Source: Pseudomonadota bacterium (lineage in GTDB: Bacteria; Pseudomonadota; Gammaproteobacteria; Pseudomonadales; Azotimanducaceae). From it: a stretch of 38,149 nt of DNA. Each line of letters begins with the position of its first letter. The stretch's first letter is position 1. The stretch is taken from contig JACZXW010000015.1 in the NCBI GenBank assembly GCA_022571415.1, positions 1-38,149 of the forward strand, read 5' to 3'. Positions 2,311 to 30,376 of the stretch are shown in pieces. The translations under genes and the position numbers were made by a program. A model generated the notes under the pieces. That model was not told where the DNA came from. It did no database searches and was given only the letters and a program-made list of their open reading frames with translations.

Positions 2311-3684
2311 ATGAGTGATCAGCCTCCTGTTTTCAAAGACACGATAGCGGCCAGGGCTACACCGTCAGGGAAAGGGGGAATAGGAGTAATTAGAGTTTCG
2401 GGTGATCGTGTTCCGATTATCTGCCGCGCCATTACAGGCTCGTTACCGAAACCAAGATTTGCTTCCTATACCAGCTTCCTTGATGCAGACGGTTCTGTTA
2501 TAGATAAGGGTCTGGCGATTTATTTTGTAGAACCTGCTTCCTTTACCGGGGAACCTGTCCTTGAATTACAGGGTCATGGAGGACCTGTTGTGATGGCAAT
2601 GTTGCTGGACAGGTGTGTGCAACTTGGAGCAAGGATAGCAGCGCCGGGTGAATTCACAGAACGCGCTTTTTTAAACAACAAGATCGATCTTTCCCAGGCG
2701 GAAGCCATTGCAGATCTGATAGACAGTGCCAGCAGTGCGGCGGCGAAAAGCGCGGTTCGCTCCATGCAGGGTGAATTTTCAGGTCTGGTAAGAGCCTTGA
2801 CTGAAAAATTGACGTCACTCCGAATATACGTGGAAGCAGCCATTGATTTTCCTGAGGAAGAGATCGACTTTCTCGCCGATGAGAAAGTAGAAGGAATGCT
2901 GGATAGCATTCTTGCGGAATTTGACAAGGTGACCAGGAAAGCTACTCAGGGTGCGCTGTTGAGAGAGGGGGTGAGCCTGGTTCTGGCAGGTCGTCCCAAT
3001 GCGGGTAAGTCCAGCCTGATGAATGTGCTCACAGGCAAAGATCTGTCTATCGTCACTGAAATCGCGGGTACCACCAGGGATGTTATCGATGATTATATTC
3101 ATCTGGATGGATTGCCTCTGCGCCTCATTGATACAGCCGGGCTTCGAACCCCGGGTGATGTGATAGAAAGGGAAGGCGTCAGGCGTGCTCAAAACGAAAT
3201 AAAAAACGCGGACCGAGTGCTGCTGATTGTTGATTGTTTTTCCACCAAAGGAGAAATAAAACACAAGGTTGGTGAATTACTCGGGGAAGTATCCTCGGAA
3301 ATACCAGTGACCGTGGTATTGAACAAGATAGACCTGAATCCTGACTGGCAACAGGAACTTGAGGACATCCCTGACAACTGGATCCCTGTGTCGGCGAAAA
3401 CAGGGGAGGGAATTGACCAGCTGCGGGAGCATCTGAAACAGGCCTTAGGTTACGTTGTGGTTGAGGAAGGGACTTTTCTCGCAAGGGCCCGCCATCTGGA
3501 CGCGTTGGCACGAGCCAGGGAATCGGTGGAAACTGGCCGCCAGCGTCTGATCATTGAGAAGGCGGGTGAGCTGCTGGCTGAAGAATTGAAACTAAGCCAG
3601 CAGGCACTTGGTGAAATTACGGGAATTGTTACCAGTGACGACCTGCTGGGCAGGATATTTTCCAGTTTTTGTATTGGTAAATAG
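2311..3684 (+). CDS. mnmE: tRNA modification GTPase MnmE
   Basis: GTPase that with MnmG makes the (carboxymethyl)aminomethyl modification at U34 of tRNAs. Domains in order: N-terminal tetrahydrofolate-binding domain (about 1-120), a helical domain split around the G domain, the G domain (about 215-380) with P-loop GRPNAGKSS, DTAGLR switch and NKID, and the C-terminal CIGK tetrapeptide holding the conserved Cys. I chose ATG 2311 (457 aa) over an upstream TTG at 2281, because AAAGG at 2296-2300 sits at the right distance and the TTG lies inside the yidC end. The two genes are probably cotranscribed. Confidence 0.96.
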   Translation: MSDQPPVFKDTIAARATPSGKGGIGVIRVSGDRVPIICRAITGSLPKPRFASYTSFLDADGSVIDKGLAIYFVEPASFTGEPVLELQGHGGPVVMAMLLDRCVQLGARIAAPGEFTERAFLNNKIDLSQAEAIADLIDSASSAAAKSAVRSMQGEFSGLVRALTEKLTSLRIYVEAAIDFPEEEIDFLADEKVEGMLDSILAEFDKVTRKATQGALLREGVSLVLAGRPNAGKSSLMNVLTGKDLSIVTEIAGTTRDVIDDYIHLDGLPLRLIDTAGLRTPGDVIEREGVRRAQNEIKNADRVLLIVDCFSTKGEIKHKVGELLGEVSSEIPVTVVLNKIDLNPDWQQELEDIPDNWIPVSAKTGEGIDQLREHLKQALGYVVVEEGTFLARARHLDALARARESVETGRQRLIIEKAGELLAEELKLSQQALGEITGIVTSDDLLGRIFSSFCIGK

Positions 3685-3822: not shown

Positions 3823-5730
3823 ATGGTCAGCGCAACTAAATTTGACGTTATTGTCATCGGTGGAGGCCATGCCGGTACCGAGGCTGCACTGGCGGCTGCC
3901 CGCAGTGGTGCCAGTACTCTATTGGTGACACAGAACATTGAGACACTTGGCCAGATGTCTTGCAACCCGGCCATCGGGGGCATCGGCAAGAGTCACCTGG
4001 TGAAGGAAATTGATGCCCTTGGGGGCGTTATGGCGCTGGCAGCTGATTATGCCGGAATACACTTTCGTGTGCTCAATAGACGCAAAGGACCGGCTGTCAG
4101 GGCAACGAGAGCGCAGGCTGACCGGCAGCTGTACCGGGCTTATATTCGTCGCACCCTGGAAAATCAGCCAAACCTGAAGATTTTCCAGCAATCAGTGGAC
4201 GATCTGATTGTTCAGGATGAACGGGTCACCGGGGTGGTGACTGATATGGGATTGCGATTTGCGGCGACTTCCATCGTGCTTACCGTCGGGACGTTCCTGG
4301 GCGGGATTATCCATGTGGGCATGGACAAGCGACAGGGCGGTCGTGCTGGAGATGCGGCGTCAAATCGACTGGCAGATCGTCTCCGGGAATTACCGTTTTC
4401 CGTGGGTCGTCTGAAAACCGGGACCCCGCCGCGGATTGATGGCAACACCGTTGACTTTTCATTCCTTGAAGAACAGCCTGGTGATGAACCTCGACCCGTC
4501 ATGTCCTATCTGTCCTCGAACAAAGATCATCCGCGTCAGGTTTCCTGTTTTATCACCCACACCAACGAGAATACCCACGATCTGATTCGGGCAGGCCTGG
4601 ACCGTTCCCCCTTGTATACGGGCAAAATTGATGGCGTTGGTCCGCGCTATTGCCCTTCAATTGAAGACAAGATCGTGCGATTTGACGACAAGTCGTCGCA
4701 CCAGATTTTTATTGAACCTGAAGGGCTCGATACGGTAGAAATCTATCCCAATGGTATTTCCACCAGTTTGCCGTTCGATGTGCAGCAGCAATTCGTAAGA
4801 AGCATCAAGGGCTTCGAGGTGGCTCACATTACCAGGCCGGGTTACGCCATTGAGTACGATTTCTTCGAACCCAGGGATTTGAAGAATTCCCTAGAAACCC
4901 GGCATCTTTCAGGTTTGTATTTCGCCGGCCAGATCAACGGTACAACCGGATACGAAGAGGCTGCCGCACAAGGCCTGATCGCTGGAATCAATGCAGCCAG
5001 GGCCGCCCGCGGTGACGACGCCTGGTGTCCGCGAAGGAATGAGGCGTATATGGGGGTGCTGGTGGATGATCTGATTACGATGGGCACAACGGAGCCCTAT
5101 CGCATGTTTACCAGCCGCGCTGAGTACCGGCTGATATTACGCCAGGACAATGCCGACAGGCGGTTGACCGAGCAGGGAAGAAAACTGGGGTTGGTAGATG
5201 AAGTGCGATGGCGACGATATTGCGAGAAGCGCGACGCCATCAGCAGCCATGCACAGATATTGAACGAAACCTATGTACATCCGGGTGACACTGCTATCGA
5301 GGCTGTGTTGGGCCAGGAAATAAGTCGGGAATATAGCCTGATTGAACTGCTCAAGCGCCCTAAGGTTACTGTAGATAGCCTGATCCAGGCAGCCAGGCTT
5401 CCTTTTGTCAACAAGGAAGTCAATGAGCAAATTGAGATCGATTGTAAATATGAGGGTTATATTTCGAGACAGCAAGAAGAAATAGATCGCATCGCTGCAC
5501 AGCAGGAAATGCGGATACCCGATGTGATCGAATACCGCTCTATTCGCGGCTTATCGAATGAAGTGTGCGAGAAACTGGAGACGGTAAGACCCGGGACAAT
5601 TGGCCAGGCTGGAAGAATTTCAGGCGTCACCCCCGTTGCAGTCTCGCTGTTACTCATTTACCTGAAGAAACAGGACTTTTCGGCTGTTGGTAAAAAGCAG
5701 GGTAGATCCAGGTCACTTAAGTCGGCTTGA
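3823..5730 (+). CDS. mnmG: tRNA uridine 5-carboxymethylaminomethyl modification enzyme MnmG
   Basis: FAD/NADH-dependent partner of MnmE in wobble-uridine modification. The 635-residue product opens with the dinucleotide-binding motif [10 protein letters not shown], and has the [17 protein letters not shown] segment, the Cys-containing [11 protein letters not shown] motif, [18 protein letters not shown] and the C-terminal MnmE-binding helical domain. ATG 3823 matches the family N-terminus; two in-frame TTGs just upstream are less likely. A 138-base gap separates it from mnmE and could hold its own promoter, but I see no convincing -35/-10 pair. The stop overlaps the rsmG start. Confidence 0.97.
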
Positions 5731-28155: not shown

Positions 28156-28836
28156 TCACATAAACCGGCCCGATAACCGGTTGAGGGTTGCCATGGCATC
28201 TTCTTCAATAATGTCGCCATGGGTTACCACAATTCGATCGAACTGCCACTGCCCGATACGTTCCAGTGAATCCTTGAAGCCTGCTTTGTCTTTATGGAAA
28301 AAACCGAGTTTCAAGGGCGGCGCGATACAGATTCCCTTGAACCCGATAGGGCCAAGTACAAATTTTTGCATGAAGGTTTGCTTCGCTCCTACATAATTTT
28401 GAATATAGTCGGTGAGGATCAGGGACTTGCTTTTCTTGTGCAGAAAGACAGATTCATCGAAAAAATTAACGCCGGGCATATGGATACAGTCTAGATCCTC
28501 CGCCCAGATATTGTTGAAATCGGCATCCAACAGCTTGAATCCATCGATTAGCTTCAGCTTCTTGGGGATGCCGCTGCTGACAATCAGTTCTGCCTGAGGA
28601 AAAGCGGATACCCACTCTTTTAGAAACAGATTGTGAGCATTGTTAGGGCCGATGATGTAACCGACATCACCCAGCTCAATTGTTTGCGTGATAAGTTCAT
28701 CACTGATTGCTGTGGGTGAATGAATCCAGAGCTTGCCACTTGTCAAGCGAACCAACGTCATGCGCAGGGATAGGTTTGTACCTGGCAGTTTCAGTTCATC
28801 TTCATGAATCCAGATATCTTCTGACAGTTTTTCCAT
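28156..28836 (-). CDS. DUF4336 family protein (metallo-beta-lactamase-like fold)
   Basis: I recognise a DUF4336-type protein of 226 residues. It has MTLVRLTSGKLWIHSPTAIS near the N-terminus, YIIGPNNAHNLFLKEWVSAFPQA, the LILTDYIQN segment and VTHGDIIEE near the end. The family is related to metallo-beta-lactamase folds but lacks the canonical HxHxDH motif, so hydrolase activity is doubtful and the function is unknown. It lies 51 bases downstream of the merR-like gene on the same strand and may be cotranscribed with it. It converges on the ABC permease gene. Confidence 0.75.
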   Translation of the reverse strand: MEKLSEDIWIHEDELKLPGTNLSLRMTLVRLTSGKLWIHSPTAISDELITQTIELGDVGYIIGPNNAHNLFLKEWVSAFPQAELIVSSGIPKKLKLIDGFKLLDADFNNIWAEDLDCIHMPGVNFFDESVFLHKKSKSLILTDYIQNYVGAKQTFMQKFVLGPIGFKGICIAPPLKLGFFHKDKAGFKDSLERIGQWQFDRIVVTHGDIIEEDAMATLNRLSGRFM

Positions 28837-28887: not shown

Positions 28888-29304
28888 TCATTCACTATCC
28901 TGCTCGTGTCCGGGATCGCGATCAGGATCTGGTGCGAGACAGTCACTCAGTTTGAGGCACTTACAGGTTAAACCGCTGTTCAACATGTCACGCAGTTGAT
29001 TCGCGCGCAGAATTTGTTTTTCGATGTCTTCGAGTTTTACTCGCGCGAATTCACGCCAGATTTTGGTTGGCGCACTTTTTTCGGAGACTCCCTCAAACAG
29101 CCGTCTGATTTCATCCAGCGTGAAATCGAGAGATTTCGCAACGCTGATAATTTTCAGTCGATTCAGAATACCCATGCCATATTTACGCTGGCCGCTAACG
29201 CGGGTTGGAGCGGGTAGCAGGTCGATAGATTCGTAGTAGCGGACTGCAGAGGCGGCGACCCCGGCTCGCCTGGAAACTTCCCCAATAGATAATTGTTTCA
29301 TCAT
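28888..29304 (-). CDS. MerR-family regulator with CxC-x5-C metal/redox motif
   Basis: Dimeric transcription factor that untwists promoters with long spacers. The 138-residue product has the MerR winged HTH (SIGEVSRRAGVAASAVRYYESIDLLP), a long dimerisation helix and a C-terminal Cys cluster GLTCKCLKLSDC. Counting from ATG 29301 the cysteines are 113, 115 and 121. C113-x7-C121 matches CueR spacing, while CxC-x5-C matches the last three of SoxR's four cluster ligands. The Cys that marks divalent-metal MerR sensors at the start of the dimer helix is absent. A longer frame upstream to 29523 is spurious: it runs through the promoter. Divergent from the operon at 29399. Confidence 0.9.
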   Translation of the reverse strand: MMKQLSIGEVSRRAGVAASAVRYYESIDLLPAPTRVSGQRKYGMGILNRLKIISVAKSLDFTLDEIRRLFEGVSEKSAPTKIWREFARVKLEDIEKQILRANQLRDMLNSGLTCKCLKLSDCLAPDPDRDPGHEQDSE

Positions 29305-29315
29305 CGATTTCAAGC

Positions 29316-29346
29316 TTGACTTAAAGTTAACTTTAACTATTAGAAT
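29316..29346 (+). promoter_or_regulatory. MerR-type promoter with 19-bp spacer and central dyad
   Basis: TTGACT (29316-29321) and TAGAAT (29341-29346) are separated by 19 bases, the long spacer characteristic of MerR-activated promoters. Within it lies the perfect palindrome TTAAAGTTAACTTTAA (29321-29336), whose core AGTTAACT equals that of the soxS SoxR box. It sits between the divergent regulator gene and the operon starting at 29399. Confidence 0.75.
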
Positions 29347-29398
29347 AGCCAGCACGCCACATGAATTCAACTTGTGAAGTGACAGAAGGAATATCGAT

Positions 29399-29812
29399 AT
29401 GAGGCAAAAGCGGAAGGTGATCGCGGATCCGTCTGCCAGTGCTGCTGATGGTTCGTGTCCCGGCGGAACCGTACAGGACATCGTTAAGGAAGAACTGTCC
29501 TGCACGCTGGACCCGTCATCCATCCAGTTCGGGATTGCGCGCTGGCGACGGGTATTTAAAAATATACAGGACTATCGGCTCAGTTCCGCAGAAGCCAGGT
29601 TTGAATTTAACCATACGAAAGCATTGCGGACGGAACTGGAAGTGTTAATTAAACAGGAACAGATATGCTGTGCGCATGTATCCTGGTCACTCGATGTGAC
29701 GCCGGTTCGATTGATATTAACGCTGATTGCTGACAGTGAAGCGCTTAAGCCGATTGTTGATGCTTTCATGCCGCAAACAAGTATCGGACCAAACTCGGAA
29801 GCAGCTCAATGA
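29399..29812 (+). CDS. Small protein with vicinal Cys-Cys motif, MerR-linked
   Basis: Function unknown. The 137 residues contain SCTLDPSSIQFGIARWRRVF (Cys35), a charged middle section, and KQEQICCAHVSWSLDV with the vicinal pair Cys90-Cys91, followed by a LILTLIADSEALKPIVDAFM segment. I recall the general pattern (CTL... then EQxCCxFxxFxL... then a final helix) from small proteins near MerR-type regulators in other bacteria, but could not check. There is no TM or signal peptide, so it is probably cytosolic. Vicinal thiols suit soft-metal binding or transfer. It begins 52 bases after the MerR-type promoter, with AGAAGGA before the ATG, and its stop overlaps the next gene (ATGA). Confidence 0.7.
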   Translation: MRQKRKVIADPSASAADGSCPGGTVQDIVKEELSCTLDPSSIQFGIARWRRVFKNIQDYRLSSAEARFEFNHTKALRTELEVLIKQEQICCAHVSWSLDVTPVRLILTLIADSEALKPIVDAFMPQTSIGPNSEAAQ

Positions 29813-30033
29813 AACAGAATAAAATGTGGCTGATGGGTCTAGTAGGTGCCGCAATGGCCGGAGTAGCCTGTCTCCTGCCGATCATTCTGTTTGTATTGTT
29901 TGGTTCGGCTGTTCTGGCGTGGGTGCCTCCATGGTTGGACTATATTCTTGTTCCTGCCTTTCTGATCTTTAGCTCAATGGCCTTCACTGCCTGGTACCGA
30001 CGAAAGAAGCTGAACCAGACTCACTGGACGTAA
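29809..30033 (+). CDS. MerF-like two-TM membrane protein with a single cysteine
   Basis: A 74-residue inner-membrane protein with two TMs (about 7-34 and 40-62) and a basic C-terminal tail (RRKKLN). The order LVGAAMAGVACLLPIILFVLFG, then WLDYILVPAFLIF, follows the MerF mercuric-ion transporter pattern. However, the first-helix Cys-Cys-x-x-Pro motif is Ala-Cys-Leu-Leu-Pro here (Cys21 only), and the C-terminal pair of MerF is missing. It may carry a different cargo or hand over thiols with the preceding Cys-Cys protein. Translationally coupled to that gene by a 4-base overlap. The MerF resemblance is by eye. Confidence 0.65.
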   Translation: MKQNKMWLMGLVGAAMAGVACLLPIILFVLFGSAVLAWVPPWLDYILVPAFLIFSSMAFTAWYRRKKLNQTHWT

Positions 30034-30034
30034 A

Positions 30035-30376
30035 ATGATGACAATGTTCTTGCTTTACCTGTTAGCGGCGATATTTGAAATCGCAGGCTGTTATGCAATT
30101 TGGGCCTGGTTACGTTTAGATTACAGCCCATGGCTTGTTCTGCCCGCGCTGGTACTCCTGGCCGGGTTTGCAGCGATTTTAACCCTGGTGGACAGTCCTC
30201 TGGCCGGGCGAGCCTATGCTGCCTATGGAGGAATTTACGTTACCTCATCACTGCTCTGGCTGTTTTTGGTCGAACAACAGTTACCTGATCGCTGGGACCT
30301 GATCGGAGGGGCTGTGACGTTAGTCGGTGCGCTGATCATAATTTATGGACCACGAGCTGAGATTATTTCGGGCTGA
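30035..30376 (+). CDS. YnfA (UPF0060) family membrane protein
   Basis: A 113-residue four-TM protein with the YnfA hallmarks: YLLAAIFEIAGCYAIWAWL in helix 1, GRAYAAYGGIYVTSSLLWLFLVE in helix 3 and a terminal GALIIIYGPR. The family is related to small multidrug resistance (SMR) transporters and has been linked to drug efflux in some enterobacteria; its native role is unclear. The start has three nearby ATGs (30035, 30038, 30044), and it begins one base after the MerF-like stop, as third gene of the MerR-controlled operon. Confidence 0.88.
   Translation: MMTMFLLYLLAAIFEIAGCYAIWAWLRLDYSPWLVLPALVLLAGFAAILTLVDSPLAGRAYAAYGGIYVTSSLLWLFLVEQQLPDRWDLIGGAVTLVGALIIIYGPRAEIISG

Follow-up and report, generated by a model that had tools for sequence, protein, structure and literature searches.

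A MerR-controlled module of a three-cysteine protein, a MerF-like protein and YnfA as a candidate resistance system for thiophilic metal(loid)s

A stretch of 38,149 nucleotides from a gammaproteobacterium of the family Azotimanducaceae (hereafter the window) carries a MerR-type regulator gene divergent from three short genes, which encode a protein of a family without a name (CC), a MerF-like small membrane protein and YnfA (Table 1). By a small balance of probability, judged from sequence and gene context, this arrangement is an inducible resistance module for thiophilic metal(loid)s, with mercury/organomercury or arsenic/antimony as the most likely class, in which CC would cooperate with the MerF-like protein and an exporter. 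The assignment to the metal(loid) class as such is likely; a role of CC as a capture and hand-over protein has about an even chance, and export by YnfA, proposed since this protein is described as an SMR-type exporter, is plausible at somewhat less than that. The gene set with its operator recurs in other classes and phyla far above chance and is not a chance array.

Table 1. Features of the module in the window.
Feature	Position	Strand	Remarks
MerR regulator, SoxR-related	28888..29304	-	138 aa counted from ATG pair
Promoter/operator TTGACTTAAAGTTAACTTTAACTATTAGAAT, 19-bp spacer with dyad	29316..29346	+	MerR-type
CC, three-cysteine protein, family without name	29399..29812	+	137 aa
MerF-like small membrane protein	29809..30033	+	74 aa, single Cys C21 (ACLLP)
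YnfA/UPF0060, SMR-related membrane protein	30035..30376	+	113 aa

All four genes were found where the initial annotation had placed them, with three coupled genes on the plus strand divergent from the MerR gene. The start of the MerF-like gene overlaps the CC stop through an ATGA, and ynfA starts one base past the MerF-like stop. Chromosomal housekeeping genes (spoT-ridA-recG-ubiA) neighbour the module, and a DUF4336 gene (28156-28836, also on the minus strand) immediately follows the MerR gene in its direction of transcription. The module has no linked ars gene, and a check of the adjoining genes found no merA, merT or merP; together with a MerF-like protein devoid of a Cys pair, this agrees with the earlier statement that the locus is not a standard mer operon.

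The regulator matches Pfam MerR_1 and MerR-DNA-bind and shows the features of the MerR superfamily, namely an N-terminal HTH, a dimer helix and a promoter whose 19-bp spacer holds a dyad. Its top NCBIfam match is SoxR, at 81.2 bits and thus under the TIGR01950 cut-off of 116.9, and against the model of Hg-responsive MerR proteins (TIGR02051) it scores 65.2 bits where 150.85 are required and lacks a Cys equivalent to MerR C82. The CxC-x5-C motif reported for it is present as C114-x-C116-x5-C122. Two classes of MerR proteins serve CC modules: class A, which includes the window regulator, is SoxR-like, with an invariant W83, the cysteine triad in 12 of 12 members and nothing corresponding to C82 of MerR; in class B regulators that Cys is present, along with more C-terminal cysteines. 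Class A keeps three of the four SoxR cluster cysteines (CxxCxC-x5-C), and because the first is missing in all 12, the ligand set of the SoxR [2Fe-2S] cluster is incomplete.

The window promoter consists of TTGACT (29316) and TAGAAT (29341) separated by 19 bp, with the spacer dyad TTAAAGTTAACTTTAA. An operator of the form TTGACTTAAAGTnnACTTTAA, with a 19-bp spacer and at most two mismatches, precedes the module in 12/12 class A loci, which span Alphaproteobacteria, the class of the window and Bacillota (Paenibacillus, Peribacillus); class B operators resemble CTTCAAGTTACTTGAAG. Exactly one class A site was found per genome in the ten module genomes, and the control with the reversed pattern gave 0. 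An operator-first scan over 289 alphaproteobacterial genomes returned nine: five carry the module, another has its site at a genuine SoxR gene (L075), and the remaining three belong to a single genus. At L075 (G908:C62:3500-9500, site at 3030) the SoxR gene, with the motif CIGCGC, is divergent from a rubredoxin/MBL-fold gene and has the operator TTGACTTAAAGTTAACTTTAA, as at the module. In the genus with three genomes (G862, G966, G1054; L076-L081), which is AT-rich, several such operators occur per genome, preceding flavodoxin, reductase and MBL-fold genes with no MerR gene beside them.

The first protein of the operon, CC, is matched by no Pfam or NCBIfam model and by no meaningful PDB sequence. 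Searches by tblastn, with profiles and in genomes located relatives in Pseudomonadota; others are carried by plasmids from alpha- and betaproteobacteria, Mycobacterium, haloarchaea, Adhaeribacter, Paenibacillus, Peribacillus and Microbacterium. The plasmid matches came only from relatives used as queries, the window CC and MerF-like proteins giving none, and neither viral contigs nor phages yielded a relative with the CC and MerF-like queries. Across 28 aligned homologues, drawn from four bacterial phyla and from haloarchaea, the only fully invariant residues are C35, E87, C90 and C91, which locates the vicinal Cys pair of the initial annotation at C90-C91 and adds to it a third invariant cysteine and an invariant glutamate. 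An AlphaFold model built from two sequences predicts a core at residues 43-123 with the order alpha-beta-beta-alpha-beta-beta-alpha (pLDDT about 80-90); residues 1-39, where C35 falls, are of low confidence. For this two-sequence model no convincing fold match was found in the PDB (Z 7.8 at most). The ArgR C-terminal domain and LAGLIDADG nuclease folds returned by Foldseek/VIA were generic, with Z below 8, and were set aside; likenesses of CC to ArsD, MerB and glyoxalase had no profile support, and a match at L008 proved spurious, its reading frame being enoyl-CoA-hydratase-like.

The MerF-like protein scores 25.8 bits with PF11431 (cut-off 24.3) and 37.3 bits with the MerF equivalog NF033565 (cut-off 50), which makes it a borderline member. 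It had been described as MerF-like with altered cysteines, and a single one, C21 in VACLLP, is indeed left, without any vicinal, second or C-terminal Cys pair. A vicinal Cys pair in TM1 is essential for Hg(II) transport by MerT and MerF (PMC5500634). This pair is lost in the MerF-like proteins of the window, L004, L035 and L041, and is seen as C-x-x-CC in TM1 of fused or adjacent relatives, which also have Cys-rich tails as in MerT/MerF. A small MerF/T-like membrane protein accompanies CC in 15 of 32 loci, adjacent in nine and fused in six; fusions of the type TM-CC occur in Paracoccus, Sinorhizobium, two Rhizobium plasmids and Janthinobacterium, and the order CC-TM in G621. Fusion in both orders is strong evidence that CC and the MerF/T-like proteins act jointly. 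No membrane partner is seen in L037, L038, L040, L039 and L042. On a Cupriavidus plasmid (L017, 3711-3992) a MerF/T-like gene without annotation lies directly before CC.

YnfA, recognised as such from the start, is full-length and above the curated cut-offs (NF002586, 124.2 bits against 114; PF02694, 101.3 against 24.9, covering positions 1-107 of 107), and it is the sole copy in its genome. In Shigella it is described as an SMR-type drug exporter (PMC9295541). YnfA lies within about 2.5 kb in 10/32 CC loci (window, L014, L019, L023, L033, L037, L038, L040, L043, L044); at L033 (genome G621, about 4777-5150) it appears to carry a frameshift close to the start. Of 11 module genomes, six carry YnfA, one copy each, and it stands beside CC in five of the six, two of these five being of one genus. 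Among Alphaproteobacteria, YnfA is present in 54/289 genomes: five of the eight with CC against 49 of the 281 without (Fisher p 0.007). As a control, 30 other high-scoring alphaproteobacterial YnfA loci were read, with CC in 0/30 and a MerR gene within the retrieved flanking sequence in 5/30; YnfA thus also occurs outside the module. In a small and partly chosen plasmid sample, YnfA was seen in a Cu/CusA cluster and behind MerR genes. The same sample shows it inside an ars operon, between an arsenic transporter and arsN2 (L086, 3492-3815), and next to merA/merF with a Tn3 transposase nearby (L088, 3501-3830); these two contexts suggest a wider metal(loid) role for YnfA.

A conservation check in related genomes, proposed along with the initial annotation, showed that the gene set recurs, though close relatives mostly do not have it. 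An adjacent MerR gene was found in 23 of the 32 CC loci read, and CC stands under four unrelated types of regulator: the two MerR classes, an HxlR-type, and ArsR or an ars operon. In Paenibacillus, YnfA-MerR is divergent from TM-CC-DoxX. The neighbours of CC include merA-merP-merT-merR in Janthinobacterium, merA-merR1 in Peribacillus and merB in four haloarchaea. Haloarchaeal plasmids (L011, L021, L022, L048) carry a merB-like gene, an HxlR-type regulator and CC, variably with DoxX and an SBF permease. On two Adhaeribacter plasmids, ACR3-CC-YnfA closes an arsR-arsN2-arsM operon; ACR3-like permeases, scoring far under the ACR3 cut-off (47.8, 36.3 and 23.7 against 282.8 bits), neighbour CC in Sinorhizobium, Cupriavidus, Nitratireductor and Peribacillus, and arsH/arsN2 do so at a further locus. 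Thioredoxin, CcdA and redoxin genes occur near CC in Rhizobium, Sinorhizobium and Cupriavidus.

The distribution of the module is patchy, and the module is mobile. CC is absent from the four other genomes of the window's genus that were examined, and the sole other hit in its family is of another subtype. The window's CC and MerR proteins fall together with copies from Alphaproteobacteria (support 96/95 and 100/99); because the window copy nests among these, the module was probably acquired horizontally, and its GC content is not distinct.

Under the metal(loid) resistance reading, the toxicant would bridge the CxC-x5-C triad of the SoxR-derived MerR protein seated on the 19-bp-spacer promoter, and the regulator would then realign the promoter and switch on CC, the MerF-like protein and YnfA. 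CC, in the cytosol, could bind the toxicant through C35 and the C90-C91 pair and exchange it with the small MerF/MerT-like membrane protein, for which it may supply the thiols that the window version no longer has; removal would fall to an exporter, YnfA in the window and an ACR3-like permease at other loci. As to the substrate, mercury or organomercury is our foremost guess, at a credence somewhat short of even, favoured by the MerF/T-like partner, the merA and merB neighbours and the Hg-MerR-like class B regulators. Arsenic/antimony, favoured by the ACR3 operons and ACR3-like permeases, is a more tentative candidate, an electrophile or redox agent is rather unlikely, and another soft metal less likely again. 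A bolder proposal, which we regard as doubtful, is that CC founds a new class of three-thiolate (C-E-C-C) metal(loid) carriers in Bacteria and haloarchaea, supplying thiols in trans to MerF/T-like proteins that in some lineages, among them that of the window, no longer have a Cys pair, with YnfA as exporter and a SoxR-derived Cys3 MerR protein as sensor. The compact detoxification module envisaged in the initial annotation is well supported by the conservation, the CC-MerF/T fusions and the mer, merB, ars and ACR3 neighbours elsewhere; that reading, partly supported as a whole, was largely right in kind.

Several other explanations deserve to be weighed against this reading. The module could be a defence against electrophiles or redox stress, the SoxR-offshoot triad sensing thiol-reactive compounds, CC scavenging or relaying thiol adducts and YnfA exporting a drug-like compound. 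This is unlikely in our judgement, however the operator type, common to SoxR-like redox regulators, keeps it alive: the best profile match of the regulator is SoxR, and the operator also stands before a genuine SoxR gene and, in one other genus, before flavodoxin, reductase and MBL-fold genes. Drug efflux by Shigella YnfA and the thioredoxin-related neighbours point the same way. The loss of the first cluster cysteine throughout class A argues against it, as do the merA, merB, ACR3 and ars genes near CC elsewhere and the Hg-MerR-like regulators of CC, which carry a Cys where MerR has C82. An arsenic/antimony module, which is the arsenic branch of the preferred explanation listed apart, would have CC carrying As(III) in the manner of ArsD and delivering it to ACR3-like permeases or YnfA. 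Sites with three thiolates are well suited to As(III), and both the Adhaeribacter operons and the permeases beside CC are in line with such a role, as is YnfA inside the ars operon of Sphingomonas aliaeris; yet most loci are under MerR rather than ArsR, merA and merB are among the neighbours, the permeases fall far under the ACR3 cut-off and the window module has no ars gene. Taken separately, this version too appears improbable.

Still less probable is a divergent mercury uptake operon, in which the MerF-like protein would import Hg(II) or RHg(I), with CC handing the imported mercury on to a reductase that is unlinked. Simple Hg(II) import is unlikely in the window since its MerF-like protein has one Cys and not a vicinal pair, and import to MerA is unlikely since no protein of its own genome reaches the MerA cut-off (best 322.9 against 454.45 bits, in an assembly about 94% complete); the loss of the pair in L004, L035 and L041 and the lack of merP and merT weigh in the same direction, against a Pfam MerF score above cut-off, the C-x-x-CC motifs and Cys-rich tails of the fused or adjacent relatives, and the merA and merB genes near CC. 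That the four genes are ordinary neighbours with no joint function is very improbable: the MerF-like and YnfA genes are each missing from several related loci, but the same-strand coupling, the CC fusions in both orders, the single-copy operator at the module in 10/10 genomes and the sole YnfA beside CC in 5/6 would then be hard to account for.

If the metal(loid) resistance reading is true, MerR biology would gain a further system of this kind, a protein family nameless in Pfam and NCBIfam would acquire a role, and YnfA, which the papers found present solely as a drug exporter, would receive a concrete function; as the operator is single-copy, one reporter suffices to test the inducer directly. 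No described system matching the module was found in the libraries searched or in a literature search of open-licence papers. The mer operon resembles it in the MerR-controlled divergent promoter with a 19-bp spacer, the small MerF/MerT-like protein and a presumed hand-over between cysteines, whereas the window module has no linked MerA, MerP or MerT, has lost the MerF Cys pair, and has CC and YnfA. SoxR is the nearest regulator by profile, its W and C-terminal CxC-x5-C align, and the operator is shared with a SoxR gene in another genome; the window regulator differs in the missing first cluster cysteine, a score under the cut-off and one target site per genome, at the module. The YnfA/UPF0060 proteins of the SMR superfamily include the window protein at full length and above curated cut-offs, but the drug efflux role described in Shigella (PMC9295541) differs from its link here with a regulator of metal type and with a Cys3 protein. 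Finally, the Adhaeribacter ars operon with ACR3 ends in CC and YnfA, while the window module is without an ars gene and is controlled by MerR.
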